A stretch of 64,000 nucleotides of DNA, taken from NCBI GenBank assembly GCA_902791035.1, contig CADAUA010000005.1, forward strand, positions 62,001 to 126,000. The letters run 5' to 3'. Numbering within the stretch: the first letter of the stretch is position 1; the number at the start of each line of letters is the position of its first letter. Of this stretch, positions 11,150-34,917 are shown in pieces. A program made the translations under genes and the position numbers. Below the pieces are notes generated by a model. The model was not told where the DNA came from. It saw only the letters and a list, made by a program, of their open reading frames with translations, and did no database searches. This DNA comes from an uncultured Coriobacteriaceae bacterium (GTDB lineage Bacteria > Actinomycetota > Coriobacteriia > Coriobacteriales > Atopobiaceae).

Positions 11150-11193
11150 CCGCACGCCACGGTGCACGGTTCCCGGCCGTGCGCCAGCCCTCT

Positions 11194-13313: not shown

Positions 13314-13319
13314 CATCTG

Positions 13320-13345
13320 ATGTGGCCGGCACGCGCCGGCCACAT
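13320..13345. repeat. Perfect hairpin between agaS and nagA
   Basis: ATGTGGCCGGC (13320-13330) and GCCGGCCACAT (13335-13345) are exact reverse complements around a 4-base loop. No T-run follows. It may stabilise the upstream part of the message or adjust the ratio of the two products. Confidence 0.6.
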
Positions 13346-13392
13346 GCGTACCGTCACGTTCCGACTTCCGCGACGACTCCGAAGGGATTCTC

Positions 13393-15182: not shown

Positions 15183-15350
15183 GGCGGCGGGTACCGGGCC
15201 TGATGCACAATCGCCTTGGCATCCAAATTCGGCCCGGGGAGCGGACAGGGACGCACCCCACTTGCCGCGGGACCCCGTAACCCAAGGCGAGGGCCGGTCT
15301 TAGGTGCCGGTCTGCGGTCCGGAGGGGCGTTCGCGTCCCTCCGGCCTTTT
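15183..15350 (+). ncRNA. Possible structured RNA with its own terminator
   Basis: CGCCTTGG (15212-15219) pairs exactly with CCAAGGCG (15282-15289) and encloses further G/C-rich complementary stretches. A clear terminator follows at 15319-15350. No protein-coding frame is evident, and I cannot match it to a known RNA family. It may simply be the long 3' end of the upstream transcript. Confidence 0.3.
15319..15350 (+). terminator. Rho-independent terminator
   Basis: CCGGAGGG (15319-15326) pairs with CCCTCCGG (15337-15344), followed by CCTTTT. The T-run is on the plus strand, so it ends rightward transcripts. Confidence 0.75.
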
Positions 15351-15411: not shown

Positions 15412-17190
15412 TCAGCCGTCCTCGTCTTTGAGGAGCCGCCACAGGGTGGTGCGGCTGATGCCCAGGAGGCGGGCAGCCTCCGTCTTGGACCCGTCGCAGC
15501 GGGCCACGGCCAGGCGGGCGATCTGGCGCTCCGTCTGGGCCAGGGGCTTGAGCACGTCTATGCCCGAGTCGGCACTACCCGTCTGCGAGTACGCCTTCAC
15601 GTTCTCGCGCCCTATGGCCTCGCGCACGTCCAAGACGAGTATGCGCTCGGGCAGGAGACGATTGGCAAAAGCACGGTCGAGGGTGCGCTGCAGCTGATGG
15701 TAGTTGCGGTCCCAATGGCAGACGGTGAGGGCGTCCAATGCGTCCGGGTCTATGAGGGGCGGCCTGACCCCCGCCGCCTGGGAGAGGACCTCCACGTACT
15801 TGGCCGCGATGCTACCGATGGCGTCGGGGGTGCGCCGCAGGGGCTCGACCTCCACGACAAAGCAGCGTAGCCGCTGCGAAAAGGCAAGGACCACCTCTGA
15901 CTCCGAGCCATCGGGGGCGTCGTTGCCCGAGAAGACCAGATGGTCCCTGCGCGCGACGTCGCTTTCGATGAGGACGGCCAGAAGGCTATGCCAGTCGTCG
16001 CGCGCCAAGGCATCGATGTTGCGAAAGAAGATGGTCTGGCCCTTGTCGTAGAGGGGCGAGTGGTGGCTTTCGGTCAAGAAGCTCAGGCTGCGCTTGCCTA
16101 TGAGCGAACAGTCGACGGAGACGAAGGGCTCTCCTGTGTGGTCTGAGCGCAGGTAGAGGAGACTTGCGAGCTGCTCCTTGCCGCACCCCGCCTCGCCGCG
16201 AATCATGACGGGCCGATGCGACGCGTTGGCCCTCTCGAGGGAGACCTCGAAGGCCGTTGCCGCTCCCGTCACGGCAAGAAAGTCCTGCTGGCTGGCCTCT
16301 CTCACCTCGCTTGAGTTGAGATAGGCAATGCCGGTGAGGCCTCGTTGCACGTGTGCGCTGAAGGTGTTGATGGAGAAGGCGACCATGCGGTCGCTGCCCA
16401 CCTCGAGGGGGATCACGCGGACGCGGTGGACGCGGTTGGCCACGCGAAAGACGAGGCGGTTCGCCTCGAGGTCGCCCACGTGGCTCCTGAGCAGCGCGTA
16501 GAGGGCACCGTTCTGGGGATCGAGGTTGGAATAGAGGACCTCCCCCGTGCGCAGGTAGATGACCAGGCGGTTGGGCGTGTGGTCGATGATGTCCCACAGC
16601 ATATGCTCCCGCTCGCGCTCCAGGCGCCAGTAGCGGCAGTGGAAAATGGCCCGTTCGAAGGCGGAGTGGATGCTGTCCGGGCCAGAGACCAACAGACGGG
16701 CGGGAACATCGGCCTGCCGTGCCGCCTCGTAGGAGGACTTGTCGCACAGCACGAGGTCGAAGTGCTCTGCGGCTATCGCTCCCATGACCTCGTCGACATA
16801 GGCCGAGGCGGCGATGCTCACCAGCTCGAAGGGCGCATCTGCCAGGTCGCGCAGGTATTCGAAGGACCGGATCGCGCCCTCGAATCCCACGACGGCCACC
16901 CGCCGGCCGCCTGACTGGGCGTCCTGCAGCTGACCGAGGGCGTCAAGGGGAGAGACCTCGATCGGGATCACGGGTACGGTGATGGAGCGCTCGAGGACCT
17001 GGGCGGTGCCCCCGCGCGATATGACGACGTCGTAGTTGGAGGGGAGGGACGAGAGGGCCGCCTCCACGCCGTGCTCGAGGTCGGCGACGACGATGGTGGT
17101 GTCGATGTTGGGGTAGTCTTTGGCCACCTGGGCGATGTCCTCACGCATCTGTTCGTAGGGGGCCACGGCCAAGACGCGGATGCGGTTCAC
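15412..17190 (-). CDS. PrpR-like regulator: PrpR_N sensor, degenerate AAA+ domain, Fis-type HTH
   Basis: A 592-residue transcription factor. Residues 1-190 resemble the PrpR N-terminal ligand domain (YDVVISRGGTAQ and VPVIPIEVSPLDAL). A PAS-like stretch is at about 205-295. An AAA+ region follows with Walker A GEAGCGKE (332-339) and a weak Walker B TIFFRNIDA (386-394). The last 40 residues are a Fis-type helix-turn-helix (SKTEAARLLGISRTTLWRLL). The GAFTGA loop used to contact sigma54 is absent, so it probably acts without sigma54. I chose GTG 17190 because GGAGGAA precedes it. It is divergent from the transporter gene and likely controls the acid-sugar locus; the inducer is unknown. Confidence 0.85.
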   Translation of the reverse strand: MNRIRVLAVAPYEQMREDIAQVAKDYPNIDTTIVVADLEHGVEAALSSLPSNYDVVISRGGTAQVLERSITVPVIPIEVSPLDALGQLQDAQSGGRRVAVVGFEGAIRSFEYLRDLADAPFELVSIAASAYVDEVMGAIAAEHFDLVLCDKSSYEAARQADVPARLLVSGPDSIHSAFERAIFHCRYWRLEREREHMLWDIIDHTPNRLVIYLRTGEVLYSNLDPQNGALYALLRSHVGDLEANRLVFRVANRVHRVRVIPLEVGSDRMVAFSINTFSAHVQRGLTGIAYLNSSEVREASQQDFLAVTGAATAFEVSLERANASHRPVMIRGEAGCGKEQLASLLYLRSDHTGEPFVSVDCSLIGKRSLSFLTESHHSPLYDKGQTIFFRNIDALARDDWHSLLAVLIESDVARRDHLVFSGNDAPDGSESEVVLAFSQRLRCFVVEVEPLRRTPDAIGSIAAKYVEVLSQAAGVRPPLIDPDALDALTVCHWDRNYHQLQRTLDRAFANRLLPERILVLDVREAIGRENVKAYSQTGSADSGIDVLKPLAQTERQIARLAVARCDGSKTEAARLLGISRTTLWRLLKDEDG

Positions 17191-17414
17191 GGATGGTTCC
17201 TCCGGGGAGTCGAGCTGCGGGCGGTAGGCTCCGTCCACAATCGCGTTTCAATTATGGACAATTTTAGCCGCCTGCGTTTCTGTTTCCTAGTGAAGATGCT
17301 CCATAAACTTTCCAAACATAGAGACGCCCCCGGAAGGCGGTTGGGAGGAGCCGCGGCCTGGGGCATGCGCTTACGAGAATTGCACGACCTGTGCAGAAGT
17401 GGAAAGGAGCACAC
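17191..17414. promoter_or_regulatory. Divergent control region regulator/transporter
   Basis: A 224-base gap with A/T-rich parts, including TCAATTATGGACAATTTTAG, where AATT recurs 11 bases apart (one helical turn). This arrangement suits binding by a dimeric Fis-type regulator. No clean -35/-10 pair stands out to me. GGAAAGGAG precedes the transporter start. Confidence 0.35.
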
Positions 17415-18695
17415 ATGACGACTACGATGATCCTTGCTTTGGGGGTGCTCATCTTCATGATCGTCCTGATCATGACGGACGCCCTGCCCTTTGGCGCGCC
17501 ACCCCTGCTGGCTGACGTGCTCATCCTTGTCCTGGCCCTCTACCCGGAGGATGCCGATCCCTTCGCCTATTCCTTCGCCGGCTTCACGGACAAGAACGTC
17601 TGGCTGATCGCCTTCTTCATGGTCGTCCTCGCTGCCTTCCAGAAGACCTCCACCACGGGCAAGATCCAGGACATCCTCTACAAGCTGGTCAACAAGGGCG
17701 GCTTCAAGAGCTACGTGGCCATCATCCTGGTCATCATGTTCTTCTCGAGCTTCGTGACGGGCACCGGTTGGTACATGCTCATCATCTCCCTCCTGGCGAC
17801 CATCCCCTACAACGAGAAGCTCCCCACCTCCAAGATCCTCATGCCGGGTAGCTTTGCCTCCGTGCACGCCCTGCTCCCGCTCAACGTCGCCTTCTACTAC
17901 GGCCTCACCGGCACCCTGCTCTCCTCCTTCAACTACGACATGTCCAAGGTGTCCACGGTGCCCTTCATGGCCCTGACCGCCATCGCCTCCCTGGGCTACT
18001 TCCTCTGGTCCCTGGTGGGCTACAAGCTCCTGCCTGACCACCCCATCGCCGATCAGAAGACCGAGGAGAGCGCCGCTGCCGTCGAGAAGGAGCCCCTGCC
18101 CAAGGGCCAGGAGTACCTGACCATCGCGTGCATCCTCATCAGCATCGTCGCCATGATGTTCCTCGACAAGCTGGGCACCATCGCCTATGCAGTGCCTGCC
18201 CTGTGCGCCTTCGTCCTCCTGTTCGGCAAGGTCCTGGACTGGAAGACCTTCCTCGGCACGCTCTTCTCGCCCATCGTCCTCATGATGGCTGGCGTTCTGC
18301 CCGTCGCCAACGCCCTGGCCGACTCCGGCTTCACCGGCATGATCGGCGGCATGGTCGCAGGTGTGGCCGGTGGCATGTCTCCCTTCGTCCTCGTCCTGGT
18401 CTTCTGCACCCTCATCGCCGTCCTGCACGTGATCACCGGCGCCAGCTTCGGCTCGCTGTTCGTCTTTGCCCCGGTGCTCATCTCCACCTGCATCAGCCTG
18501 GGCATCGACCCCGTCGGCCCCACCGCCGCGGCCGTCTACTCCGCCTGGGTCGGCTCCTTCCTGCCCATCGACGGCCAGCCTGCCGTCACCATGGGCATGG
18601 GCAAGTACAGCATGGCCGAGTTCTGGAAGTACACGATCCCGATGGACATCATCGGTCTTGTCTGCCTGGCGCTGGCCGCAGTGCTCTGCTTCTAG
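17415..18695 (+). CDS. DASS/SLC13-like anion transporter
   Basis: A 426-residue integral membrane protein with about 11-12 hydrophobic segments. A charged cytoplasmic loop at about 213-240 (DQKTEESAAAVEKEPLPKGQ) splits it into two halves, as in divalent-anion/sodium symporters. Symmetric hairpin-like Ser/Gly/Thr stretches (FFSSFVTGTGWYM at about 113-125 and ITGASFGSLFVFAP at about 345-358) fit the substrate-binding repeats. The start ATG at 17415 has GGAAAGGAG. It is the first gene right of the PrpR-like regulator and is followed by a terminator. A carboxylate or sugar-acid cargo is inferred from the enzymes downstream. Confidence 0.8.
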   Translation: MTTTMILALGVLIFMIVLIMTDALPFGAPPLLADVLILVLALYPEDADPFAYSFAGFTDKNVWLIAFFMVVLAAFQKTSTTGKIQDILYKLVNKGGFKSYVAIILVIMFFSSFVTGTGWYMLIISLLATIPYNEKLPTSKILMPGSFASVHALLPLNVAFYYGLTGTLLSSFNYDMSKVSTVPFMALTAIASLGYFLWSLVGYKLLPDHPIADQKTEESAAAVEKEPLPKGQEYLTIACILISIVAMMFLDKLGTIAYAVPALCAFVLLFGKVLDWKTFLGTLFSPIVLMMAGVLPVANALADSGFTGMIGGMVAGVAGGMSPFVLVLVFCTLIAVLHVITGASFGSLFVFAPVLISTCISLGIDPVGPTAAAVYSAWVGSFLPIDGQPAVTMGMGKYSMAEFWKYTIPMDIIGLVCLALAAVLCF

Positions 18696-18731
18696 TCACA
18701 GGCGATAACGAGAAGCCCAACGAGCTTCTAT

Positions 18732-18770
18732 GGGGGCTGGCTCTGGTGCGTAGGGGCCAGCCCCCTTTCT
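18732..18770 (+). terminator. Terminator after the transporter gene
   Basis: GGGGGCTGGC (18732-18741) pairs with GCCAGCCCCC (18756-18765), followed by TTTCT. It may partly separate the transporter from the hydrolase genes. Confidence 0.75.
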
Positions 18771-18832
18771 CAGAAACGTAGGACCGCGCAGGCCGGTAGG
18801 TGGCGCGGATGACAAGAGCGGGAGGTCACGGA

Positions 18833-20617
18833 ATGCACGACACGATGAACGAGCTCACCCAGCACTCGCCCTTCGGGGGGCAGCTGGTCCTGGAGACGGT
18901 TGCGGGAACCACGTCCGGCAAGCTCAATCCCGAGAACGATGTGGAGGTGGCCCAGGGCGTCGACCGGACCATGTACGTCTACGTGCCGGGTTCGGGCGTG
19001 CCCCACGCCAAGCAGGGCCAGGTGCTCATGGTCCTGCGCGATGAGGCCACCAGGGAGTCCGCCCTGGACCTCATGGGCAGGCTGGGCCTGGCCAGGCTTG
19101 CTGAGGAGCGCCACTTCATCCTCCTCTTCCCCAACCCGGAGGAGGGTGGCTGGAACTATGATCGCACGGCCTCGCGCGATGACGACACCCAGTTCCTGGT
19201 CAGGTGCTTTGCCGCGCTCAAGGGCTCAAAGGGTGGCGTGGCCGGCTTCAATGGCATGATCTACCACCTGGGCGCCACGCCGGCGGGGTCTGCCATGGCG
19301 CTCACCCTGGCAGGTGTCAGCCCCCTGGACGCCGCGGCGGTGATGGTCGGCGCCACTCCGGAGGGCTACGTCCTGCCGGACTCCTCGGCCGAGCAGGTGG
19401 CCTGGCTCTACGAGCCCAATGCGCAGGTCGAAAGCCACCTGGAGCAGGTGAACAAGCCTGCCGGCAGCGTCGTCTGGCGCGGTGTCACGGTCCATACCAA
19501 CGCGGACAACCCCAACGTCCGCTACTTCGTCTCCGACGGCGGGCTCACGGCCGAGACGGTTGCCGACGCGTGGGAGCGCATGTTCTCCACCACCCGTCGT
19601 TGGCGCAACGACACCTACGGCACCTACCAGCCGCGCATCGACTTCACGGACCGCGGCTTCGTGGCCCACGTCCACGACACCAGCCTGGGCTTGGACGACG
19701 GCATCGCACGCACTTGGTACGAGTACGTGCCCGCCCGTCTGCGGGGCACCACGCAGCCGGTGCCGCTGGTCTTCTTCCTCCACGGCATCAACTGCGTGGC
19801 CCTCTACAGCGCCGAGCAGTCCGGCTGGGCGGACCTGGCGGACCGCGACGGCTTCATCGTCGTCTTCCCGGATCCCGCCATCGAGGAGCGTTGGAACGTA
19901 TGGGACGATCCTCGCATCCCGAGTGACGTCACCTTCATCCGCGCCCTCATCGACCACATGCAGGACGTCCATCCCATCGACACCACCCGCGTCTACCTCT
20001 CCGGCTTCTCCATGGGGTCCATGTTCTCCAACGCCCTGGCCTGCTCGTACCCTGAGCTCTTTGCGGGTGCCGTCGCCTGCAACGGCCCCTCGATGGGGTA
20101 CCTGCAGACCCTGGACGAGTCCGTCCCCGGCATGCTGATGTTCCGCCGCAACTCCGTTGTGGGCCATCTGCCCGCGACTGACGCCACCGTCCCGCCCACC
20201 CGCCGGCTTGCCGATGCCAAGAAGGCGGCCTTTGACTACCGCATGCCCTTCGTCCAGTTCGTGGGTCTGCTGGATGGCGTGGGCCTTGCCCCTGGCAAGG
20301 TCTGGCCGGCCACCGAGGAGAGCGACAGCCTGTGGAAGGACGACGTCTCCTACTGGCTTGGCTACGACAACGTGCCGGGCGATCTTGCCTACACCGATAC
20401 CAACGAGCTGGGCTATGCCGCCGATAAGGTCACGCGCCAGGGGCGCTTCGTGCATCTGGCCTGGGAGAGCGCCGACGAGGGCCAGCCTGAGCTCTTCCAT
20501 CTGGTGGGGCTTGCCCGCATGCCTCACGCCGTCGACCTCGAGGCCATAGACAAGGGCTGGCAGTTCGTGCGGCAGTATCGCCGCAACCCCGATGGCAGCC
20601 TGGGAAAGGTGGAGTAA
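18833..20617 (+). CDS. Two-domain alpha/beta-hydrolase (PHB-depolymerase/LpqC-like), paralogue 1
   Basis: A 594-residue protein without signal peptide. The C-terminal half (about 280-594) is an active-looking esterase: oxyanion segment VFFLHGINC (about 313-321), nucleophile elbow GFSMGS with Ser393, and a late His in ARMPHAVD. The N-terminal half (about 40-200) has the same fold pattern, but its elbow reads AGFNGM, with Asn140 where Ser is expected, so it looks like a dead copy. The start is ATG 18833 (GGGAGGTCACGGA). It ends 2 bases before the start of paralogue 2. Likely hydrolyses an ester of the locus substrate; that is inferred. Confidence 0.8.
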   Translation: MHDTMNELTQHSPFGGQLVLETVAGTTSGKLNPENDVEVAQGVDRTMYVYVPGSGVPHAKQGQVLMVLRDEATRESALDLMGRLGLARLAEERHFILLFPNPEEGGWNYDRTASRDDDTQFLVRCFAALKGSKGGVAGFNGMIYHLGATPAGSAMALTLAGVSPLDAAAVMVGATPEGYVLPDSSAEQVAWLYEPNAQVESHLEQVNKPAGSVVWRGVTVHTNADNPNVRYFVSDGGLTAETVADAWERMFSTTRRWRNDTYGTYQPRIDFTDRGFVAHVHDTSLGLDDGIARTWYEYVPARLRGTTQPVPLVFFLHGINCVALYSAEQSGWADLADRDGFIVVFPDPAIEERWNVWDDPRIPSDVTFIRALIDHMQDVHPIDTTRVYLSGFSMGSMFSNALACSYPELFAGAVACNGPSMGYLQTLDESVPGMLMFRRNSVVGHLPATDATVPPTRRLADAKKAAFDYRMPFVQFVGLLDGVGLAPGKVWPATEESDSLWKDDVSYWLGYDNVPGDLAYTDTNELGYAADKVTRQGRFVHLAWESADEGQPELFHLVGLARMPHAVDLEAIDKGWQFVRQYRRNPDGSLGKVE

Positions 20618-20619
20618 CC

Positions 20620-22428
20620 ATGTACGATCCAACTGAGGAGATCGAGCGCTTCTCGCCCTTCGGGGGCACCCTCATCCGCGAGGTCGTCCCGGGGCAGGCC
20701 AATTCCCTCAAGGTCCCCGAGAATTCTGTCGAGGCGGCTACGGGGGTCGACCGGGACATGTTCGCCTACGTCCCCAGGACGGGCTGCCCCGACGCCAAGC
20801 AGTGCCAGGTGCTCATGGTGCTGCGCGACGACCCCAGCGAGGAGAGCGCGAGGCAGCTGGTCGAGTCACTGGAGCTGGACAAGCTGGCGGAGGACCGCCA
20901 CTTCGTCCTGCTCCTGCCGAACCCCACCGCCCGGGGCTGGAACTACGACCTTGACCCGGAGCGCGAGGACGACCTCTCCTTCCTGGTGCGCTGCTTTGCC
21001 GTCCTGCCCAAGTCCCGCGGCGGGGTCGCCGGCTTCAACGGCATGATCTTCTACTTGGCCACGACGCCTGCCGCGTCGGCGCTCGTGGCGAGCCTTGCGG
21101 CAACGCGTCCGCTGGACTGTGCGGCTGCCTTCGTCGGGGCCTTCCCCCAGGGTTACCAGATGCCGGCCGGTGCTGGTGCCCCGCAGGTGGCGTGGGTGAT
21201 TGATGGCAACGAGGCCGCCATTGACCGCCTGGCGCGTGTCAACGGCCCGGAGGCGTCCTGCGACGAGCCTACGCCGGGCATCGAGCGGCACGTAAGCCAG
21301 GGCAACCCCAACGTCCGTCACTTCGTGTCCTCGGGCCACCTCGATGCCCATGAGGTGCGACTCGCCTGGGAGCTCATGTTCTCCGAGGCCCGCCGCTGGC
21401 GCAACGACACCTATGGCACCTATCAGAAGCGCACCGACTTCTCCGCGCGCGGCTTCGAGGCCCACGTGCGTGACGTCTCCCTGGGCGTGAACGACGGCTT
21501 CGCCCATACCTGGTACGTCTATGTGCCGCCCCAGCTGCGAGGGACCACCCGGAAGGTGCCCCTGCTCTTCAACTTCCACGGGGGCAACTGCGTGCCCCTC
21601 TACTGCGCGGAGCAGAGCGGCTGGCATGACGTGGCGGACGAGCAGGGCTTCATCGTCGTCTATCCCCGAGCCTCCACCAAGAAGTCCTGGAACGTGATGG
21701 ACGATGCGGACAGGCCCAGTGACATCGCCTTCGTGCTTGCCCTGGTCAAGCGGATGGAGGAGACCTATCCCATCGACGAGAGCCGCATCTACCTGTCCGG
21801 CTTCTCCATGGGCTCCATGATGACCAACGCCCTGGCCTGCTCATACCCGGAGCTCTTTGCCGCGGCAGCGCCCTTCAATGCCCAGAACCTTGGCTACCTC
21901 TCCAACACGCAGGCGTTCATGGCCTCGTTCACCAACAGCATGAGCACGCTTGACCCGGAGGTCCGGAGCCAGCCGTCGAGGACCAGGGAGCGCACCGATG
22001 CCAAGGCGGCCGCGCGCGCTGCGGAAGGCGTGGTCTGCCGCATGCCGCTCATCCAGTTCTGTGGCATGAGGGATGCCCAGGTGGGCTCCCAGATGCCCTT
22101 CGCCCAGCCCCTGACCGATCTCAACCGGGCCTGGCTTGAGACCTTCGACTACTGGAAGGCCTTCAACGCCACCGCATCCTCGCCGGACGAGGCGGCGGTA
22201 GACCCTCAGACGGGCATACCGGCCGACGAGGTGACGGTGGAGGGGGGCGACGGCCGCTTCATCCGCCATGCCTGGCACAGCCAGGATGAGGGCAGCCCTT
22301 CTCTCTACCAGATGGTGGCCGTCAAGAACATGGAGCATGCCATCGACCTGCGTGAGGTCCACATGGCCTGGGACTTCATGAGGCGGTTCTCACGGTCGTC
22401 CGACGGCACGCTTGTGTTTCAGAACTGA
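20620..22428 (+). CDS. Two-domain alpha/beta-hydrolase, paralogue 2
   Basis: A 602-residue protein closely resembling paralogue 1 along its length (for example SPFGG at about 12-16, RWRNDTYGTYQ, FSMGSM). The C-terminal catalytic elbow is GFSMGS with Ser396, and the oxyanion segment is LFNFHGGNC. The N-terminal half again carries AGFNGM with Asn140 at the elbow, so the defect predates the duplication. No signal peptide. The start ATG at 20620 is 2 bases after the previous stop, with GGAAAGGTGGAG upstream, so the two are translated together. A hairpin (22435-22472) follows. Confidence 0.8.
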   Translation: MYDPTEEIERFSPFGGTLIREVVPGQANSLKVPENSVEAATGVDRDMFAYVPRTGCPDAKQCQVLMVLRDDPSEESARQLVESLELDKLAEDRHFVLLLPNPTARGWNYDLDPEREDDLSFLVRCFAVLPKSRGGVAGFNGMIFYLATTPAASALVASLAATRPLDCAAAFVGAFPQGYQMPAGAGAPQVAWVIDGNEAAIDRLARVNGPEASCDEPTPGIERHVSQGNPNVRHFVSSGHLDAHEVRLAWELMFSEARRWRNDTYGTYQKRTDFSARGFEAHVRDVSLGVNDGFAHTWYVYVPPQLRGTTRKVPLLFNFHGGNCVPLYCAEQSGWHDVADEQGFIVVYPRASTKKSWNVMDDADRPSDIAFVLALVKRMEETYPIDESRIYLSGFSMGSMMTNALACSYPELFAAAAPFNAQNLGYLSNTQAFMASFTNSMSTLDPEVRSQPSRTRERTDAKAAARAAEGVVCRMPLIQFCGMRDAQVGSQMPFAQPLTDLNRAWLETFDYWKAFNATASSPDEAAVDPQTGIPADEVTVEGGDGRFIRHAWHSQDEGSPSLYQMVAVKNMEHAIDLREVHMAWDFMRRFSRSSDGTLVFQN

Positions 22429-22434
22429 ACCAAC

Positions 22435-22472
22435 TGACCCCGCGTGACCGATGTCGCGGCCATGCGGGGTCA
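22435..22472 (+). terminator. Hairpin after the hydrolase pair
   Basis: TGACCCCGC (22435-22443) pairs with GCGGGGTCA (22464-22472). There is no T-run, so it is more likely a processing or partial-termination structure before the kinase gene. Confidence 0.45.
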
Positions 22473-22526
22473 CCTAGCATGACCATGTGAACATGCCCCA
22501 ACGTTCGAAAGGAGGGGACGGCAGCC

Positions 22527-23753: not shown

Positions 23754-23812
23754 CCGCGTACTTAGAGGAGAGCTTACCGTCGGCAGAGCGCCGGCGACGA
23801 GGGAGGAGCGTC

Positions 23813-24967
23813 ATGAAGGACAAGTACGATCTGAAGCTGCCCAAGGAAGTCTATTCGGGCGTGGACGCCATGCAGAACCTGTCGGCCATCCTGGCTGAGT
23901 ACGGCACCACCAAGGTGGCCCTCTTCACCGATGCCATGCTGCGCAAGCTGGGCCTCACCCAGGAGGCCGAGGCCGTGCTCCAGGCCGCGGGCGTGCCCTA
24001 CGAGGTGATCGACGACGCCCCGGTGGAGCCGCCCTACGCAGCCGTGCAAGCGCTTGCCGACCGCTTCCGCGGCATGGGGGCCGACCTCATCGTGGCCATC
24101 GGCGGCGGCTCCGTGATGGACGCGGCCAAGCTCTGCTCGGTGCTCGCCACCACCGACTACACCGTCAAGGACCTCCTGGACGACCCCAAGCAGGCCCAGA
24201 AGTACGTCAAGACCGTCATGGTGCCCACCACCGCCGGCACCGGCGCCGAGGCCACGCCCAATGCCATCGTGGCCGTGCCCGAGAAGGACACCAAGATCGG
24301 CATCGTGAACAACGCCCTCATGGCCGACGCCGTGATCCTGGACGTCAAGATGGTCCAGAACCTGCCGCCCAAGGTGGCCTCCGGCCCCGGCGTGGACACC
24401 CTCTGCCACGCCATCGAGTGCTTCACCTCTACCAAGGCCAACCCCTTCTCCGACACCTTTGCCCTGGACTCCCTGCAGCTCACCCTCGACAACCTGGAGA
24501 AGTCCTGCTTTGACAAGGACAACCTCGAAGCCAAGCGCGCCATGCAGCTGGCCAGCTTCTACGGCGGCATCGCCATCACCGCCGCCGGCACCACGGCCGT
24601 GCATGCCCTGTCCTACCCGCTGGGCGGCAAGTACCACGTGCCCCACGGCGTGTCCAACGCCATCCTGCTGATTCCGGTCATGAAGTTCAACAAGCCGGCC
24701 ATCGCAGATCGCCTGGCCCTGGCCTACGACCGCTGCATCCACGGCGATGCGGTCACGGTGGACCAGAAGGCCGATGCCATGATCGAGCGCATGGAGCAGA
24801 TCGTGGTCGCCCTCAAGATCCCGACCAAGGTGGCCGAGCTGGGCGTGACCGACCCCGACATCGACTTCCTGGTGGAGGCCGGCATGCAGCAGCAGCGCCT
24901 GCTGGTCAACAACATGCGCCCCGTTACCCCCGAGGACGCCCGCGCCCTCTACGAGCAGATCATCTAG
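23813..24967 (+). CDS. Iron-type (group III) alcohol dehydrogenase
   Basis: A 384-residue NAD(P)-dependent oxidoreductase. The Rossmann-like GGGSVMDAAK is at about 101-110, PTTAGTGAEAT at about 140-150, and metal ligands are likely in DTLCHAIE, KYHVPHGVSN and upstream Asp. The start ATG at 23813 follows GGGAGGAG; the longer open frame before it runs antisense-like through the kinase gene and is not used. In this locus it may reduce an aldehyde released by the aldolase, or oxidise a sugar-derived alcohol. A 31-base perfect palindrome lies directly after the stop. Confidence 0.92.
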   Translation: MKDKYDLKLPKEVYSGVDAMQNLSAILAEYGTTKVALFTDAMLRKLGLTQEAEAVLQAAGVPYEVIDDAPVEPPYAAVQALADRFRGMGADLIVAIGGGSVMDAAKLCSVLATTDYTVKDLLDDPKQAQKYVKTVMVPTTAGTGAEATPNAIVAVPEKDTKIGIVNNALMADAVILDVKMVQNLPPKVASGPGVDTLCHAIECFTSTKANPFSDTFALDSLQLTLDNLEKSCFDKDNLEAKRAMQLASFYGGIAITAAGTTAVHALSYPLGGKYHVPHGVSNAILLIPVMKFNKPAIADRLALAYDRCIHGDAVTVDQKADAMIERMEQIVVALKIPTKVAELGVTDPDIDFLVEAGMQQQRLLVNNMRPVTPEDARALYEQII

Positions 24968-24985
24968 AACCCATCAAACATCTAA

Positions 24986-25016
24986 TGTGACAAAAGTGCC
25001 TGTCACTTTTGTCACA
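24986..25016. repeat. 31-base perfect palindrome, copy 1
   Basis: Arms TGTGACAAAAGTG and CACTTTTGTCACA are exact reverse complements around a 5-base loop (CCTGT). It lies between the alcohol dehydrogenase stop and the DHDPS-family ribosome binding site. Copy 2 is at 31878-31908. Confidence 0.85.
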
Positions 25017-25034
25017 TGGAGGAAGGAAGGACCG

Positions 25035-25937
25035 ATGAAGCAGGTGGACATCAAGGGCATCATCGTTCCCATCGTCACCCCGTTCCGCGCGGACGAGACG
25101 GTCAACGTGCCCGAGCTCCGTCGCCAGGTGGAGCGCCAGATCGAGGCCGGGATCCACGCCATCTTCGCCTTTGGCACCAACGGCGAGGGCTACATCTTGG
25201 ACGCCGACGACAAGTACCTGGTGCTGGCGACCATCATCGACCAGGTGGCGGGCCGCGTGCCCGTGTACGCCGGCACCGGCTGCATCTCCACGCGCGAGAC
25301 CATCGAGCAGTGCGAGATGGCAGAGGACCTGGGCGCGGACGTGCTCTCCGTGATTACGCCCTCCTTCGCCAAGGCCTCCCAGGCCGAGCTCCAGGCCCAC
25401 TACGAGGCCGTGGCCGCAGCCGTGCCCGACATGCCCATCGTGCTCTACAACATCCCGGCCCGCACCGGCAACGCCCTCGCGCCGGAGACCGTGGCCGCCC
25501 TGGCCGACGTGCCCAACATCGTGGGCGCCAAGGACTCCTCCGGCGACTGGGACAACCTCAAGGCATACATCGACCTCACGGCCGACAAGGACTTCGCGGT
25601 CCTCTCCGGCAACGACGCCCTTATCCTCAAGGCCCTGCAGCATGGTGCCGCGGGCTCCATCGCGGGCTGCGCCAACGTATACCCAAAGAATATGGTGGGC
25701 ATCTACGAGAACTTCGTGGCCGGCAACCTCGAGGCCGCCGAGGCCTGCCAGGGCAACGTGGCCAACCTCCGCTCCTGCTTCAAGTACGGCAACCCCAACA
25801 CCATCGTGAAGACCGCCGTCAACCTGCTGGGCTACCCGGTGGGCAAGTGCCGTGCGCCCTTCAACCAGGTGCCCGAGGAGGGCATCGAGGCCCTCAAGCA
25901 GGTGCTGGCTGCCGACGCCGAGAGGGGCGTGTGCTAG
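25035..25937 (+). CDS. DHDPS/N-acetylneuraminate-lyase family aldolase
   Basis: A 300-residue class I aldolase of the DapA superfamily. The Schiff-base Lys166 is in VGAKDSSGD, the catalytic Tyr138 in LYNIPARTG, and the carboxylate-binding loop is FGTNGE (46-51; GTTGE in true DapA). Members cleave or form 2-oxo acids with pyruvate. In a sugar-acid locus a 2-keto-3-deoxy acid lyase fits better than lysine synthesis. The start ATG at 25035 has TGGAGGAAGGAAGG. Its stop touches the PdxA2-type start with no gap. Neuraminate lyase is an alternative given the BNR and YhcH-type genes nearby. Confidence 0.88.
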   Translation: MKQVDIKGIIVPIVTPFRADETVNVPELRRQVERQIEAGIHAIFAFGTNGEGYILDADDKYLVLATIIDQVAGRVPVYAGTGCISTRETIEQCEMAEDLGADVLSVITPSFAKASQAELQAHYEAVAAAVPDMPIVLYNIPARTGNALAPETVAALADVPNIVGAKDSSGDWDNLKAYIDLTADKDFAVLSGNDALILKALQHGAAGSIAGCANVYPKNMVGIYENFVAGNLEAAEACQGNVANLRSCFKYGNPNTIVKTAVNLLGYPVGKCRAPFNQVPEEGIEALKQVLAADAERGVC

Positions 25938-27005
25938 ATGGCCCAGACCACGTACAAGCCCATCGTGGGCATCTCCATGGGCGACCCGGCCGGTAACGGC
26001 CCCGAGATCACCGTCAAGGCCCTCTCCAATCCGGCGCTCTACGACCGCTGCCGTCCCATCGTGGTGGGCGACTGGAAGATGCTGGAGCAGGCCAAGGGCT
26101 TCGTGAACCACCCCGAGGTGGCCATCAACCCGGTGGGATCGGTGGCCGAGGCCAAGTTCGAGCCCGGCACCATCGACGTCTACCAGCTGGACCTGATCGA
26201 GGACGTGTCCGCCTTCAAGCTGGCCACCGTGTCTGCCGAGGGCGGAAACGCCGCCTTCCAGTCCGTCAAGAGGCTCATAGAGCTCGCCATGGCGGGCGAG
26301 GTGGACGCCACGGTGACGAACGCCCTCAACAAGGAGGCCATGAACCTGGCGCTTGCGCCCCAGGGCATGCACTTCGACGGCCACACGGAGATCTACGCCA
26401 CCTACACGGGCTGCAAGAAGTACGCCATGATGCTGGCTCACCACGACTTCCGCGTGGTGCACGTGTCCACCCACGTGAGCCTGCGCGAGGCCTGCGACCG
26501 CGTGAAGACCCCGCGCGTGCTGGAGTGCATCGAGCTGGCCAACCAGGCCTGCCTGGACCTGGGCATCCAGAACCCCCGCGTGGCCGTGGCCGGCCTCAAC
26601 CCCCACTGCGGCGAGAACGGCCTCTTTGGGCGTGAGGAGATCGACGAGATTGCCCCCGCCATCGAGATCGCCAAGTCCCGCGGCATCAACGCCATCGGCC
26701 CCATCCCGCCCGACTCGGTCTTCTCCGAGATGAACGGCGGCTGGTACGACATTACTGTGGTGATGTACCACGACCAGGGCCACATCCCCACCAAGGTGCT
26801 GGGCTTCGTGATCGACCGCGCCACCAACCAGTGGAAGGCCGTGGAGGGCGTGAACATCACCCTGGGCCTGCCCATCATCCGCACCTCCGTGGACCACGGC
26901 ACGGGCTTCGCCAACGTGGGCAAGGGCACGTCCAACGAGCTCAGCCTCGTGAACGCCATCGATTACGCGTTGCGCATGGCAGCTGGTAGGAAGGGCCGCC
27001 TGTAG
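25938..27005 (+). CDS. pdxA2: PdxA2-type 4-phosphate-acid dehydrogenase (decarboxylating)
   Basis: A 355-residue NAD-dependent enzyme of the PdxA family. The N-terminal GDPAGNGPE motif (about 15-23) and the three metal-binding histidines are present: His179 in VSTHVSL, His223 in LNPHCGE and His278 in MYHDQGH. The PdxA2 branch oxidises and decarboxylates 4-phospho-threonate or -erythronate to DHAP and CO2 and partners DUF1537 kinases. Its location between such a kinase and hydrolases, with no vitamin B6 genes, supports this over pyridoxal synthesis. The ATG at 25938 directly follows the aldolase stop. Confidence 0.88.
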   Translation: MAQTTYKPIVGISMGDPAGNGPEITVKALSNPALYDRCRPIVVGDWKMLEQAKGFVNHPEVAINPVGSVAEAKFEPGTIDVYQLDLIEDVSAFKLATVSAEGGNAAFQSVKRLIELAMAGEVDATVTNALNKEAMNLALAPQGMHFDGHTEIYATYTGCKKYAMMLAHHDFRVVHVSTHVSLREACDRVKTPRVLECIELANQACLDLGIQNPRVAVAGLNPHCGENGLFGREEIDEIAPAIEIAKSRGINAIGPIPPDSVFSEMNGGWYDITVVMYHDQGHIPTKVLGFVIDRATNQWKAVEGVNITLGLPIIRTSVDHGTGFANVGKGTSNELSLVNAIDYALRMAAGRKGRL

Positions 27006-27059
27006 GCCCCATGGCTTGATGGGGCTCAGGGACAGGGAGAAGACAAGGAGCAGGGAGCC

Positions 27060-28694
27060 ATGGCCGAGGAGTTCGAGGATATCTACTACTACGTTGCCGC
27101 GACCGTCGGGGCGGCATATGTCCATACCGTCTTCCTGTGCGTTCCGGATGAGTTCGCCCGCACCAAGCAGGACGCCCAGGACTTCGCCTCGTGCCATGGC
27201 TGGATCGAGCAGGCCGAGCGGGACTCTAGCATCCTCATCGTCCCCCTCGCGCCCGAGGGTTGGGCCAAGCAGCCCACAAGCCATCTCATGAGCCTCTTCA
27301 AGAAGTACGCCACGGCCTTCTTTGCCCCTTCTGGCGTGGCCATCCCGGGACGCGGGCTGCCGGGCCAGCTCTGGCTGTGGGAGCCCATGGTCTATGTGGC
27401 AGGCTACGGCGAGGGGGCCACCTATGCCGCGGATGTGCTCGTGGCCGAGCCCGGCTTTGCGGCTGCCACCGTCCTTGTCGGTGGCCGGGCGAGCTCCCTG
27501 GAGGCCGCCGACCGCGAGACCTCCTGCTGGGTGGTGCCCCAGCACTCCGACGCCTACCACAAGGTCAACCGGGAGGTGCCCGTGGCGGCTTGGCTGGTGG
27601 GGGAGGACGACGACGGGGGAGCCCTGCGCGGGTACCTGGCACAGGTCGACCAGGCGACCGCCCACTCGACGGTCACGTATCAGGGTCGTGAGATAGAGGT
27701 TGCCGAGAACCCGACGGAGCCTGCCTGGCACATCTGGAGCACCCCTGATCTTGCTCTCGACGACCCCGCCATCGCACGGATCGCGGTCCAGGAGTTCTTC
27801 TCGCGCGTGTATCGCTGGAAGGGCGGGCCCGACGGTACCCTCAAGGTCCACACGTCCAAGGCAGAGTTCCTGGGCGGGGCCTTCTACAAGCACGGGACCA
27901 TCCACGAGGGGGGATTGGACTACCCCTACGCCGTGCACCTGCCGGCTGGTCTCGGTCGTGGGGACGTGAGGGGCCTGCCGCTCGTGCTCTCCATCCATGG
28001 GCGCGGTGAGGGCATCTGGTCCTACGCGGAGAAGAACGGCTGGGAGGCCCTGGCCGACGAGACCCGCGCGTTCGTCACCGTGAGCCCGGACTCGCTCTAC
28101 GAGATCTGGGTGGGCAAGCGTGACATGCACGCCCTCGAGCTCCTGGTCAAGCAGGTGCTTGCGGACTTCGAGCTGGACCCCGAGCGCGTCTATGTGACGG
28201 GCTTCTCCAACGGCGGCATGATGACCTACCAGGCCTCCACGACGATGCCCCAGCTCTTTGCGGCGGCCTCGCCATGGAACTCCCCGGCGGGGAATGCGGG
28301 CCTGCCCGGCTTTGCGGAATACTTCGTCAACCCCGACTTCGCGAGCCTGGGCTGCGAGATGCCCCTCTGGGCCTTCTATGGCGACCGAGACACCAAGATT
28401 CCCTACGACGAGGGGGCCTTCCTTTCGGACGGCTTCTTTGCCTGCAACGGTACCAGCCGCGAGCAGCGCCTCGAGCTTGACCCCGTCGCGGCCTTCCCGG
28501 AGGCGCGGGGCTACAGGGAGTCCGAGCGCATGCTCTCGTGGGCCTGGAGGAATGCCCAGGGCAGCACCCGCATCGGCCTCACGCTGGTGCGCGACGTGCC
28601 CCATGGCTCCATCTGGGACGAGGCGAGGGCTGCCTGGGAGTTCATGAGCCGCTTCCGGCGGCCCGCCGGCTCCAAGAGGGTCGTGGAGCTCTAA
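27060..28694 (+). CDS. Two-domain alpha/beta-hydrolase, paralogue 3
   Basis: A 544-residue protein, more distant from paralogues 1 and 2. The C-terminal half has LVLSIHGRGEG (about 308-318) and the nucleophile elbow TGFSNGGMM with Ser383, plus a late His in RDVPHGSIWD, so it looks active. The N-terminal half has an alpha/beta-hydrolase-like pattern with elbow AGYGEGA (about 114-120), where the Ser position is Gly. No signal peptide. The start ATG at 27060 has AAGGAGCAGGGAG upstream. It sits between the PdxA2-type and MFS genes; a hairpin with TTT follows. Confidence 0.78.
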   Translation: MAEEFEDIYYYVAATVGAAYVHTVFLCVPDEFARTKQDAQDFASCHGWIEQAERDSSILIVPLAPEGWAKQPTSHLMSLFKKYATAFFAPSGVAIPGRGLPGQLWLWEPMVYVAGYGEGATYAADVLVAEPGFAAATVLVGGRASSLEAADRETSCWVVPQHSDAYHKVNREVPVAAWLVGEDDDGGALRGYLAQVDQATAHSTVTYQGREIEVAENPTEPAWHIWSTPDLALDDPAIARIAVQEFFSRVYRWKGGPDGTLKVHTSKAEFLGGAFYKHGTIHEGGLDYPYAVHLPAGLGRGDVRGLPLVLSIHGRGEGIWSYAEKNGWEALADETRAFVTVSPDSLYEIWVGKRDMHALELLVKQVLADFELDPERVYVTGFSNGGMMTYQASTTMPQLFAAASPWNSPAGNAGLPGFAEYFVNPDFASLGCEMPLWAFYGDRDTKIPYDEGAFLSDGFFACNGTSREQRLELDPVAAFPEARGYRESERMLSWAWRNAQGSTRIGLTLVRDVPHGSIWDEARAAWEFMSRFRRPAGSKRVVEL

Positions 28695-28721
28695 GTCCCA
28701 GCTCTTCAAAGCGGTGAGCAT

Positions 28722-28758
28722 GGTCGCCAGCCCGCAGTGCCAGGGACTGGCGACCTTT
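28722..28758 (+). terminator. Hairpin with short T-run before the MFS gene
   Basis: GGTCGCCAG (28722-28730) pairs with CTGGCGACC (28747-28755), followed by TTTGACTT. It is a candidate partial terminator inside the locus, 10-20 bases before the next start. Confidence 0.5.
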
Positions 28759-28775
28759 GACTTCTGGAGGTCTGT

Positions 28776-29996
28776 GTGGTGCAAAAGAGGAAGCTTCCGG
28801 TCCGCCACCTCATGGTGCTTGTCGCCATGTGCTCCCTGGGCATGGCAGGCCTTGGCATCTTCTACAAGGTGCAGGGCATCTTCTTCGTGCCCATGGCCGA
28901 GGAGCTTGGCTGCGGGCGCGGAGCGGTGAGCGTGATGCTGACCATCGTGAGCCTCACAGGCGCAGCCACCGGCATGGTCGTGAACCGTCTGTTGGACCGC
29001 TGGCCGCTCAGGGCTGTCATCCTGCTAGGGGCGACCATGTGCGTGGTGCCGACGGGCTTGAACTCCCTCTGTCACAGCCTGCCTCCCCTGTACGTCCTGA
29101 GCGCCGTGTGCGGGGTGGGGGTGGGCATCATCAGCTCGGTGCTCCTGACGACGGTCATTGGCCGGTGGTTCGTCGAGGGTAGGTCGCTGGCGACCGGCAT
29201 CGTCTTTGGGTCGACGGGCATCGCCGGCGCGGTCTTCTCGCCTGTGGTCTCCGCCATCATAGAGGGGCGGGGCTGGCGTGTGGGCTATCTGGTGTCGGCC
29301 GCCCTCATCGCGGCGTTCTGCCTGCCAGCCGTGGTGCTGCCCATCACCCTCTCACCTGAGGAGGCCGGCCTCGCGCCCTTGGGCGGCAAGGCGTCTGCGG
29401 CAGGGAGGACCGCGCACGAGGCCCATACGGTGCCAGGTGCCCTGCCATTGGCGCTCGTCCTCTCCTTCCTCTGCATGTTCGTGAACCCCATCACGCACCA
29501 TTTCCCTGGTCTTGCGGACTCGCTCGGCCTGCCAGCCAGCGTCGGGGCCCTCATGATCTCGTCCTGCATGGTGGTAAACAGCTTCGGGAAGGTGGCGCTC
29601 GGCGCGATGTCAGACCGCTTTTCCCCGCTGGCCTCGCTCGAGGTGGACCTGGGCCTTACCCTCCTCGGCGTGCTGGGCCTCCTCCTCGTCCCGACGGAGC
29701 CCATGGTCTACGTGTCGTCCGGGCTCGTGGGAGCCAACTTCGCCTTTGTCACGGTCGGCCTGGCGACGGTCGTGCTGGGGGTCTTTGGGGAGGAGCGCTA
29801 TGGGGAGGTGTACCCGCTTGTCAACCTGGCGGGGGCCATCGGGTCTGCCCTTGGGGCCACCCTCATAGGGGTCTTCTATGACGTCAGCGGAGACTACCGA
29901 CTGGCCTTCGTCGTGCTCTCCACCATGTTGGCGGCATGCATGCTCATCGTCGCATATCTCCTTGGGCGGCCAAAGGAAGAGACGTTTCAAAAGTAG
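28776..29996 (+). CDS. Major facilitator superfamily transporter
   Basis: A 406-residue membrane protein with 12 hydrophobic segments. The MFS pattern is visible in VNRLLDRWPLRAVILLGA after the second segment and SDRFSPLASLEVDLG in the second half. The overall look is of the oxalate/formate- or monocarboxylate-type OFA branch, but cargo cannot be set. GGAGG at 28766-28770 serves either GTG 28776 or GTG 28779; I give the first. It lies within the acid-sugar locus and may import substrate or export a product. Confidence 0.88.
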   Translation: MVQKRKLPVRHLMVLVAMCSLGMAGLGIFYKVQGIFFVPMAEELGCGRGAVSVMLTIVSLTGAATGMVVNRLLDRWPLRAVILLGATMCVVPTGLNSLCHSLPPLYVLSAVCGVGVGIISSVLLTTVIGRWFVEGRSLATGIVFGSTGIAGAVFSPVVSAIIEGRGWRVGYLVSAALIAAFCLPAVVLPITLSPEEAGLAPLGGKASAAGRTAHEAHTVPGALPLALVLSFLCMFVNPITHHFPGLADSLGLPASVGALMISSCMVVNSFGKVALGAMSDRFSPLASLEVDLGLTLLGVLGLLLVPTEPMVYVSSGLVGANFAFVTVGLATVVLGVFGEERYGEVYPLVNLAGAIGSALGATLIGVFYDVSGDYRLAFVVLSTMLAACMLIVAYLLGRPKEETFQK

Positions 29997-30112
29997 ACGG
30001 GACGACGGCCACAGGAAGCTTGTTGGCTCCTTGGGCCACGGCGCACTATGGTGTGGAAGGCTGGCCGGCATGCACGTGGCCACGCGAAACCTGGCGAGGT
30101 AAGGAAGGTCAT

Positions 30113-31294
30113 ATGCCCATCATGGAACTGCCCGGGCTCACTCCCGATGGCCAAATCTATTATGACCCTGAGATGAAGGTCACCGAGGCCATGCTGTCTC
30201 CGGGCCCCTGGGCCACCCACCATGGCCCCGGCCTGTTGGAGACTCCGGCCGGCACCCTGCTCTGCTGCTGGTTCGCCGGCACCTACGAGGGCGACACGGA
30301 CATCAACATCGTGGTGTCCCGTCTGCCCAAGGGTGCCACGCAGTGGGAGGAGCCCCGCTACATCTCCACGGACAACGACCACTCCGACCAGAACCCATCG
30401 CTCTTCCTCAACCCCGAGAACGGCGAGATCTGGTGTCTCTACACCTCCCAGCTGGGCCGCCAGCCGGGCAAGGACAACATGCAGTACACCTCGCAGATCA
30501 AGCGCCAGGTCTCGACCGACGACGGCCTCACCTGGTCCGAGCCCGAGGTCATACTCCCGGAGGAGGGCACCTTCGCCCGCCAGCCCATCCAGGTCCTCTC
30601 CAACGGCCGCTGGATCTACGGCCTGTGGCTCTGCACCGACTCCGCGAGCGGTCTGGCCGGCGACCCCTCCGCCTTCGCCGTGTCCGACGACAAGGGCGCC
30701 ACGTGGCGCCGCGTTGACGTGCCCAACTCCTCTGGCCGCGTGCACCCCTCCGTCGCCGAGCTGGAGCCCGGCCACGTGGTCTGCTTCATGCGCTCGCGCG
30801 AGGCCGACTGGATCTACCGCTCCGAGTCCTTTGACTACGGCGACACCTGGACCGAGCCTGCGAAGACCGTCCTGCCCAACAACAACTCGGGCATCGGCGT
30901 GATCAAGCTCCAGAGCGGCCGTGTGGCCATCGTGTACAACCACAGCTCCGCGCCCCAGACCTACGGCAAGAAGGGCGCCTGGCCGGGGCTGCGCTGCCCC
31001 GTGAACATCGCCCTCACCGAGGACGGCGGCAAGACCTTCCCGCTGATCCGCCAGGTCGAGCGCGGCGAGGGCTACGTGGGCGACGAGAACCGCTTCAACA
31101 ACCGCCAGTACGAGTACCCCTGCATCATGCAGTCGGCCGACGGCATGATCCACATCGCCTACGCCTACCAGACCCGTCGCGGCGTCAAGTGGGTGTGCCT
31201 CTCCGAGGACGACGTGATCGGCGGCAAGCGCGGCGAGAGCACCTACAACCCCACCTCCGGTGACGTGGGCGCCCACCCCGTGGCCAGTAAGTAG
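30113..31294 (+). CDS. BNR/sialidase-like (exo-alpha-sialidase family) protein
   Basis: A 393-residue six-bladed beta-propeller-type protein without signal peptide. It shows Asp-box repeats STDDGLTW (about 134-141), SDDKGATW, SFDYGDTW and TEDGGKTF. The N-terminal HHGPGLLETPAGTLLCCWFAGT (written here in part) is typical of the BNR_2 branch. Many members of this branch are not sialidases, and the cytoplasmic location here argues for intracellular glycoside or ester processing. The start ATG at 30113 has AAGGAAGG. A YhcH/EbgC-type gene follows after a G/C hairpin, which often accompanies sugar-acid or sialic-acid genes. Confidence 0.8.
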   Translation: MPIMELPGLTPDGQIYYDPEMKVTEAMLSPGPWATHHGPGLLETPAGTLLCCWFAGTYEGDTDINIVVSRLPKGATQWEEPRYISTDNDHSDQNPSLFLNPENGEIWCLYTSQLGRQPGKDNMQYTSQIKRQVSTDDGLTWSEPEVILPEEGTFARQPIQVLSNGRWIYGLWLCTDSASGLAGDPSAFAVSDDKGATWRRVDVPNSSGRVHPSVAELEPGHVVCFMRSREADWIYRSESFDYGDTWTEPAKTVLPNNNSGIGVIKLQSGRVAIVYNHSSAPQTYGKKGAWPGLRCPVNIALTEDGGKTFPLIRQVERGEGYVGDENRFNNRQYEYPCIMQSADGMIHIAYAYQTRRGVKWVCLSEDDVIGGKRGESTYNPTSGDVGAHPVASK

Positions 31295-31311
31295 CATATA
31301 GGTGGCAAAGG

Positions 31312-31342
31312 GGCGGTGGGGGCGCAGCGCGTCCCCACCGCC
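31312..31342 (+). terminator. G/C hairpin after the BNR gene
   Basis: GGCGGTGGGG (31312-31321) pairs with CCCCACCGCC (31333-31342). No T-run follows; it is probably an intercistronic hairpin. Confidence 0.4.
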
Positions 31343-31381
31343 TGCGTGTGGTCGGCACGACCAACGGGAAAGGTGGAAGCG

Positions 31382-31870
31382 ATGATCTACGACGGCATCT
31401 CCGCCATCGGGCGCTACCGGGGGCTGGCCAAGGGGCTCGACGTCCTTATCGACTGGCTTGGCGAGCACGACGACTGGCGCGACCTGCCCACCGGCAGGAA
31501 CGAGATCTGCGGCAGCAAGGTCTTTGCCAACGTGCAGGACGCCACCACCCGCACCGCGGGCAGCGCCCACTACGAGGTGCACCGTCGCTACATCGACGTG
31601 CAGGTGGACCTGGTGGGCTGCGAGGCCTTCCGCGTGACGCCGGGCGCCACGGTGCCACTCGAGGACTTCGACGAGGCCCGCGACTACCAGAAGGTGGACG
31701 CCGCGCCCCAGAACGGCGACGAGATCGAGGGGACGCTGGCCAAGGGCCACTTCGCGGCCTTCTTTCCGGGCGAGCCCCACATGCCCAACCTCGTGTGCAC
31801 CGCGGCCGAGCCCTATCCCATCCACAAGATCTGCTTCAAGGTCCTCGCCGACGAGTTCTGGGAGGACTAG
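31382..31870 (+). CDS. YhcH/YjgK/YiaL (EbgC-like, DUF386) family protein
   Basis: A 162-residue cupin-like protein. Family marks are the NEICGSKVFANVQD stretch, EVHRRYIDVQVDLVG (written in part) with conserved His, and the late FFPGEPHMPN metal-site region. Relatives are found with sialic-acid, beta-galactoside and sugar-acid catabolic genes and are thought to act on sugar anomers. The ATG at 31382 is preceded by GGGAAAGGTGGA. It is the last gene of the locus and is followed by palindrome copy 2. Confidence 0.9.
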   Translation: MIYDGISAIGRYRGLAKGLDVLIDWLGEHDDWRDLPTGRNEICGSKVFANVQDATTRTAGSAHYEVHRRYIDVQVDLVGCEAFRVTPGATVPLEDFDEARDYQKVDAAPQNGDEIEGTLAKGHFAAFFPGEPHMPNLVCTAAEPYPIHKICFKVLADEFWED

Positions 31871-34872: not shown

Positions 34873-34887
34873 AACCCGTTTTGGGTT
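34873..34887. promoter_or_regulatory. Candidate operator upstream of the Xre gene
   Basis: AACCC-N5-GGGTT (AACCCGTTTTGGGTT) is a compact inverted repeat 30 bases before the start of the Xre regulator. That is a usual place for self-regulation. Confidence 0.45.
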
Positions 34888-34917
34888 ATGGCTGGGGCAT
34901 GACGTACGTTTCCTGCC

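Follow-up and report, generated by a model that had tools for sequence, protein, structure and literature searches.

A candidate pathway for the pectin sugar acid 3-deoxy-D-lyxo-2-heptulosarate in a DUF1537 kinase-PdxA2 gene cassette of gut bacteria

D-Threonate, a 2,3,4-trihydroxy acid, is reportedly converted to dihydroxyacetone phosphate (DHAP) and CO2 by a DUF1537 kinase (DtnK) together with PdxA2, a route said to have been described by Zhang et al. in 2016. Aldolases of the DHDPS superfamily free pyruvate from 2-keto-3-deoxy-4-hydroxy acids. To our knowledge, the seven-carbon (C7) acid sugar 3-deoxy-D-lyxo-2-heptulosarate (Dha) is found in plants only in the pectin rhamnogalacturonan-II (RG-II), a conserved cell-wall and dietary component whose depolymerisation by Bacteroides is known; BT_1020 of Bacteroides thetaiotaomicron, a GH142-GH143 enzyme, releases Dha from RG-II (chain D). 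A standard of pure Dha is reported to be unavailable (PMC12168206). Here we analysed a cassette of 12 genes at positions 15412–31870 of a 64,000-nucleotide stretch of contig CADAUA010000005.1 (the window), from an Atopobiaceae-like Coriobacteriia genome of 2.69 Mb (99% complete). As in the D-threonate pathway, the kinase and a PdxA2-type dehydrogenase lie in one cluster and the last two steps are predicted to be identical. Here, however, they are joined by genes for a DHDPS-family aldolase, an iron-containing alcohol dehydrogenase (Fe-ADH), a sialidase-fold protein (BNR) and a YhcH-type protein, and D-threonate would arise inside the cell instead of by import. We consider it likely that the cassette breaks down Dha, converting this C7 diacid to pyruvate, DHAP and CO2, and that D-threonate is probably an intermediate and not the imported substrate.

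GTDB genomes, drawn up to a set number, were scanned with PdxA2, which yielded 80 named loci (loci carry an L number and genomes a G number below). Some loci were cut by contig ends and several were fragments of metagenome-assembled genomes (MAGs), so that component counts are lower bounds. Four genes occurred together in 55 of the 80 loci, in 44 of them in the order of the window: the predicted D-threonate 4-kinase (22527–23753; PF07005 and PF17042), Fe-ADH, a predicted four-carbon (C4) aldehyde-acid reductase (23813–24967; PF00465/PF25137), the aldolase (25035–25937; PF00701, E=6.6e-73), whose predicted products from a 2-keto-3-deoxy-heptarate are pyruvate and a C4 aldehyde-acid, and the predicted D-threonate-4-phosphate dehydrogenase PdxA2 (25938–27005; PF04166, E=5.7e-96). 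Because these four core genes recur together so often, the gene set goes beyond chance. Carriers included Coriobacteriia, Lachnospiraceae, Faecalibacterium, Enterocloster, Hungatella, Blautia, Anaerocolumna, Spirochaetes and a Synergistaceae MAG; the closest named relatives carrying the locus were Atopobiaceae/Olsenella-like Coriobacteriia. Hungatella effluvii is one carrier that has been cultured. A first-pass annotation of this DNA had proposed an uncharacterised acid-sugar pathway ending in the kinase and PdxA2 and larger than plain threonate cassettes, which we consider correct. Among the 55 full cassettes, BNR was present in 32, a DASS-type transporter in 20, TAXI-type TRAP components in 12 and an Lpl-type ABC importer in 6. 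The core was thus usually accompanied by BNR or a 2-hydroxyacid dehydrogenase, and by importers for organic acids or oligosaccharides. Large open reading frames adjoining the L066 and L044 cassettes had no Pfam match.

Because Fe-ADH must link the aldolase to the kinase, the aldol product should be a C4 aldehyde with a carboxylate, and the substrate therefore a C7 2-keto-3-deoxy diacid. Dha fits this description, and we derived the stereochemistry of its cleavage. The D-lyxo configuration places the hydroxyls of C4 and C5 left and that of C6 right, so that cleavage between C3 and C4 gives OHC-(left)-(right)-COOH, which after reduction, and with the carboxyl turned uppermost, is D-threonate; the same derivation on 3-deoxy-D-manno-octulosonate (Kdo) yields D-arabinose, as known. 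This served as an independent check, in that D-threonate is also the substrate of the NCBIfam model that the kinase matches best, although that match is far below the cut-off. We infer the enzyme reactions, the substrate and the direction of transport all from sequence, as follows. Dha, free or glycosidically or ester-substituted, would be imported by the DASS or the MFS transporter; cytoplasmic esterases would strip ester groups where present, and BNR would free Dha from its ketoside. The YhcH homologue would open the Dha ring, as YhcH does with N-acetylneuraminate, and the aldolase would split Dha into pyruvate and D-threuronate (OHC-CHOH-CHOH-COOH). Fe-ADH would reduce the aldehyde to D-threonate, the kinase would form D-threonate 4-phosphate, and PdxA2 would oxidise and decarboxylate the latter to DHAP and CO2. 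One C7 diacid would thus give pyruvate, DHAP and CO2, with pyruvate and DHAP entering glycolysis, and a PrpR-like protein is the presumed sensor.

The occurrence of GH143 (Dha-hydrolase) genes near the cassette had been named as a test of the Dha hypothesis before the search. In L074 (Candidatus Hungatella pullicola), the gene adjoining the core and an ABC importer encoded PF24067 (BT_1020-like) plus PF22585, and the only PDB match of this protein was 5mqr/5mqs (E=1.7e-115, 390 bits), an entry that, in line with the Pfam name, is BT_1020. PF24067 was found in cassette proteins of L074 (E=1.2e-75), L183 (E=1.6e-86) and L191 (E=7.6e-74). The L074 gene occupies the exact slot held by BNR in L067, L076, L079, L086 and L096; L191, like L074, had GH143 at the BNR position of the operon, whereas in L183, L184, L181/L195 and L185/L196 it adjoined the core. 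PF24067 scored above its cut-off in 15 of 397 Lachnospiraceae genomes, and the surroundings were read for 13. All four core genes lay within ~13 kb of GH143 in 6 of these 13, in two arrangements: Kin-FeADH-DHDPS-PdxA2-LplA-LplB-YtcP-GH143 (G380, G1003), and DHDPS-FeADH transcribed away from Kin-PdxA2-[FGE-BNR fusion], GH143 being either adjacent or a few genes farther along (G1062, G967, G968, G990). Near GH143, G1027 had DHDPS and Fe-ADH, G913 had Fe-ADH, and 5 of the 13 (one a 5-kb contig) had no core gene. Identity to the L074 protein was 42–65% for cassette-linked GH143, whereas most unlinked forms showed 30–37%, and one reached 42% across part of the protein. PdxA2-type genes were present in 52 of 240 Lachnospiraceae genomes (~0.28 per genome), which gives an expectation of ~0.2% per genome for a chance PdxA2 neighbour within 13 kb of GH143, against the 6/13 observed. 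Chance adjacency is unlikely, also when the two arrangements are taken as just two events; because related genomes are not independent, we give no formal P value. The GH143 homologues within or next to this core in several Lachnospiraceae point to Dha as the substrate. Compared with BT_1020, which the L074 protein matches, the Lachnospiraceae forms had no obvious signal peptide and covered only its first half. In the cluster of the window, GH143 is absent and the sialidase-fold protein, with six blades, is a different one. In L061 (13608–16499, Enterocloster alcoholdehydrogenati), DUF2264 and GH88-family genes came after the cassette, which may be another link to pectin breakdown.

The same survey bears on another explanation, namely that the substrate is an aldarate of the 2-hydroxy or 2-keto type that has no connection with RG-II, the GH143 neighbours being incidental or of other specificity. 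GH143 is missing from most cassette genomes, and a 2-hydroxyacid dehydrogenase, sometimes together with a LarA-type gene, takes the place of BNR in some loci; the two GH143-core arrangements, one of them with GH143 at the BNR position, argue against this explanation, which we regard as very unlikely. A same-strand D-2-hydroxyacid dehydrogenase was present in 8 of the 55 loci and BNR in 32, but both in none. Because of this lack of co-occurrence, the simplest reading is that the two are alternative ways to present a 2-keto acid to the aldolase, with the caveat that the loci are interrelated. In L113, outside the 55, both were present. In two loci without BNR (L084, L092), PdxA2 was followed by a D-2-hydroxyacid dehydrogenase gene together with one of the LarA type, which suggests entry of a 2-hydroxy acid form.

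Several observations weigh against Dha as the substrate. GH143 beside the cassette in every genome was ruled out, as PF24067 was found in just 2 of 50 cassette genomes searched, and 9 of the GH143-type genes examined had no core gene nearby; the Clostridia matches in G513, G675, G727 and G415 likewise had no cassette nearby. GH143 adjacency was seen in Lachnospiraceae, not in the lineage of the window, and its six cases amount to two arrangements only. The evidence would carry over to the window through homologous core genes, PdxA2 being 64% identical to that of the window in L074 and L191 and ~38–50% identical in the other arrangement. The kinase scored 138.3 bits against its best NCBIfam match, the D-threonate kinase model NF047819 (cut-off 450), and PdxA2 scored 309.7 bits against NF002891 (cut-off 583). 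The exact reaction of BNR is uncertain, as discussed below, and it is not obvious what the esterases would do with Dha. In the open-access literature searched, we found no assayed enzyme of such a cassette. Nor did we find a Dha catabolic pathway there, although a report in a subscription journal is possible.

Kinase motif residues were kept in 66 homologues, and D197, H201, H266 and H280 of Fe-ADH (numbered from codon 23807) were conserved in 55. PdxA2 passed a vitamin B6-biosynthesis cut-off and was the only PdxA-family gene found in the host genome. It was 91–95% identical to PdxA2 of the Coriobacteriia loci L027–L031, whereas the adjoining Fe-ADH and kinase were ~59% and ~33% identical, a mosaic that suggests recombination or gene replacement. 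In the aldolase, Lys166, Tyr138, Arg143 and the GTNGE motif were invariant across 23 homologues; Arg143 corresponds to the substrate-carboxylate-binding position of DapA. Like DapA, the aldolase retains the Schiff-base Lys, the Tyr and this Arg, and it scored 219.8 bits against the dapA model TIGR00674, above the cut-off of 206.15. Assignment as DapA was nevertheless ruled out, since GTNGE/TPSFA replace GTTGE/TPYYN and the genome holds a separate DapA-type paralogue elsewhere (L143) that has GTTGE and TPYYN.

The combination of a sialidase fold, a NanA-type aldolase family and a YhcH anomerase parallels the use of sialic acid, where a ketosidase (sialidase), a ring-opening anomerase (YhcH/NanQ) and a pyruvate-forming aldolase of the DHDPS superfamily (NanA) act together. 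An ordinary N-acetylneuraminate (nan) locus would show these features, and nagA and agaS homologues lie just upstream. However, the aldolase scored 134.4 bits against NanA (TIGR00683, cut-off 382), and the YhcH protein (31382–31870; DUF386, PF04074) scored 82.2 bits against the N-acetylneuraminate anomerase model NF040884 (cut-off 160), while clearing the YhcH/YjgK/YiaL family model TIGR00022 (94.9 bits, cut-off 45.5). The downstream enzymes take a C4 acid and not ManNAc, a nan locus leaves the kinase, PdxA2 and Fe-ADH unexplained, and a His replaces the sialidase Glu. An ordinary sialic acid locus was thus rejected on the two missed cut-offs, and we regard it as extremely improbable.

The altered residue lies in BNR (30113–31294; PF13088), a BNR_2 protein predicted to release an ulosarate from a glycoside. 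Its model (pLDDT 84.6) was a six-bladed sialidase beta-propeller that matched 1wcq with Z 37 and an r.m.s.d. of 2.4 Å over 318 residues. In a profile alignment to 4bbw, the position of the catalytic sialidase Glu was held by an invariant His211, so that the Tyr-Glu pair is incomplete. Arg227 was aligned and invariant, Tyr335 is probably retained, and the first Arg, that of the RIP motif, appears to be replaced by His37 at the edge of the alignment. Because the Glu has become His211 and the first Arg is apparently lost, BNR is, by its residues, not a canonical sialidase. PF24067 (GH143) was not in the BNR protein of the window, where only BNR_2/BNR were reported at E≤0.001. BNR was present in 18 of 297 Coriobacteriales genomes, 15 of which also had PdxA2; two of the remaining three had a BNR fragment only. 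In L183 (7336–9699), L184 (10699–13065) and L060 (14585–16666), an FGE-sulfatase-like domain was fused to a BNR_2 propeller, and the gene for this fusion adjoined PdxA2 or cassette ABC importer genes.

YhcH followed BNR in nearly all BNR-bearing Coriobacteriia cassettes and is a predicted ulosarate anomerase. YhcH-type proteins open cyclic ulosonates, including 2-keto-3-deoxynononate (KDN), for their aldolase, and had no effect with 2-keto-3-deoxyxylonate, which is already largely open (PMC8141875). By analogy, Dha as a pyranose would need such ring opening. The activity on KDN also speaks for a further explanation, in which the aldolase splits a different 2-keto-3-deoxy acid (Kdo, KDN or a microbial ulosonate or ulosarate), and the aldehyde formed beside pyruvate is reduced and passed to the kinase and PdxA2. 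The same enzyme families would serve, and the variety of transporters points to more than one form of the substrate. However, Kdo and KDN leave neutral sugars (arabinose and mannose), not a C4 acid usable by DUF1537/PdxA2, and it is the Dha-hydrolase family GH143 that adjoins the core; we therefore consider this explanation unlikely.

The first-pass annotation had proposed instead an imported ester or conjugate of a C4 acid, cut by three esterases. These, all polyhydroxybutyrate (PHB)-depolymerase/CE1-like, are EstA (18833–20617; Esterase_PHB), a two-part alpha/beta-hydrolase, its 50% identical paralogue EstB (20620–22428) and EstC (27060–28694), the commonest esterase in relatives. Their cytoplasmic location agrees with that annotation, the starts showing no signal peptide by eye, and the triads are intact: the Ser-Asp-His residues (S396, D485, H573) lie in the C-terminal half and were invariant in 19 homologues. 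The EstB model (pLDDT 89.5) matched acetylxylan, PHB and feruloyl esterases best in the PDB (Z ~27, residues 275–595 only). An acylated or phenolic ester of threonate or erythronate could thus be imported and cut, with the C4 acid passing straight to the kinase and PdxA2, and oxalyl-threonate esters occur naturally in plants (PMC6099474). However, the known esters carry L-threonate, whereas the kinase fits the D-threonate model best, and no role would be left for the aldolase, Fe-ADH, BNR and YhcH. Comparison of the PdxA2-recovered neighbourhoods in other gut bacteria showed that the core is shared and that the esterases are outside it. Because few full cassettes carry them (EstC 6, EstA 2 and EstB 2 of 55), the esterases are accessory genes; most of their carriers are Coriobacteriia, along with a few other gut MAGs. 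With the esterases accessory, the aldolase and Fe-ADH in the core and GH143 beside it, a conjugate is plausible, but an ester of a C4 acid is probably wrong; a threonate ester as the imported substrate was rejected, and we rate it quite unlikely. For Dha, RG-II bears acetyl and methyl groups (PMC12168206), so that the esterases may strip imported RG-II fragments in the cytoplasm; this is the weakest step. The RG-II methylesterase BT1017 was not among the structural matches listed for the esterase model, which excludes nothing.

A broader proposal is evenly balanced in our judgement: that a full, undescribed Dha pathway extends across gut Coriobacteriia, Faecalibacterium, Lachnospiraceae, Spirochaetes and others, with a new intracellular sialidase-fold enzyme (Glu to His) and GH143 interchangeable at its entry. 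If true, Dha breakdown would provide a testable four-enzyme route and would account for the DUF1537/PdxA2 genes that often travel with a DHDPS-family aldolase and Fe-ADH in gut bacteria. It would also predict that RG-II degraders cross-feed other species, for example Faecalibacterium, and would correct automatic annotation, in which the aldolase passes a lysine-biosynthesis cut-off as PdxA2 passes that for vitamin B6.

Gene families were assigned with Pfam and NCBIfam profiles. All the genes named in the first-pass annotation were present, and all 12 were intact open frames with the codon bias of real genes. Starts were corrected to 17415 (DASS), 18833 (EstA), 23813 (Fe-ADH), 25035 (DHDPS), 30113 (BNR) and 31382 (YhcH). 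The PrpR_N-type regulator (15412–17238, reverse strand; PF06506, E=2.8e-34; HTH_8; degenerate AAA+ part) diverges from 11 co-directional forward-strand genes (17415–31870) with intergenic gaps of 0–137 nt, and a PrpR-type regulator was near 50 of the 55 full cassettes. It probably acts without sigma-54, because inspection of its sequence revealed no GAFTGA motif and a profile search of the host genome found no sigma-54 (PF04552). A sigma-70 promoter scan found nothing. The transporters are a CitMHS/DASS-type organic-anion transporter (17415–18695; PF03600, PF00939), a candidate dicarboxylate importer, and an MFS organic-acid transporter (28776–29996; PF07690), which matched L-lactate and oxalate-formate type subfamilies in NCBIfam below cut-off.

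Just upstream of the cassette, a cluster for use of N-acetylgalactosamine (GalNAc) was found at 9163–14568, with mannose-family phosphotransferase system IIC/IID components of N-acetylgalactosamine type, a GntR/UTRA regulator, an AgaS-like SIS protein and a NagA-type deacetylase. A strong terminator-like hairpin (15319–15344; 11 pairs followed by CCTTTT) separates this cluster from the regulator. Farther on, at 34881–36617, an open reading frame of 578 aa resembled the RsgA GTPase, with an N-terminal part of ~300 aa preceding the matched domain.

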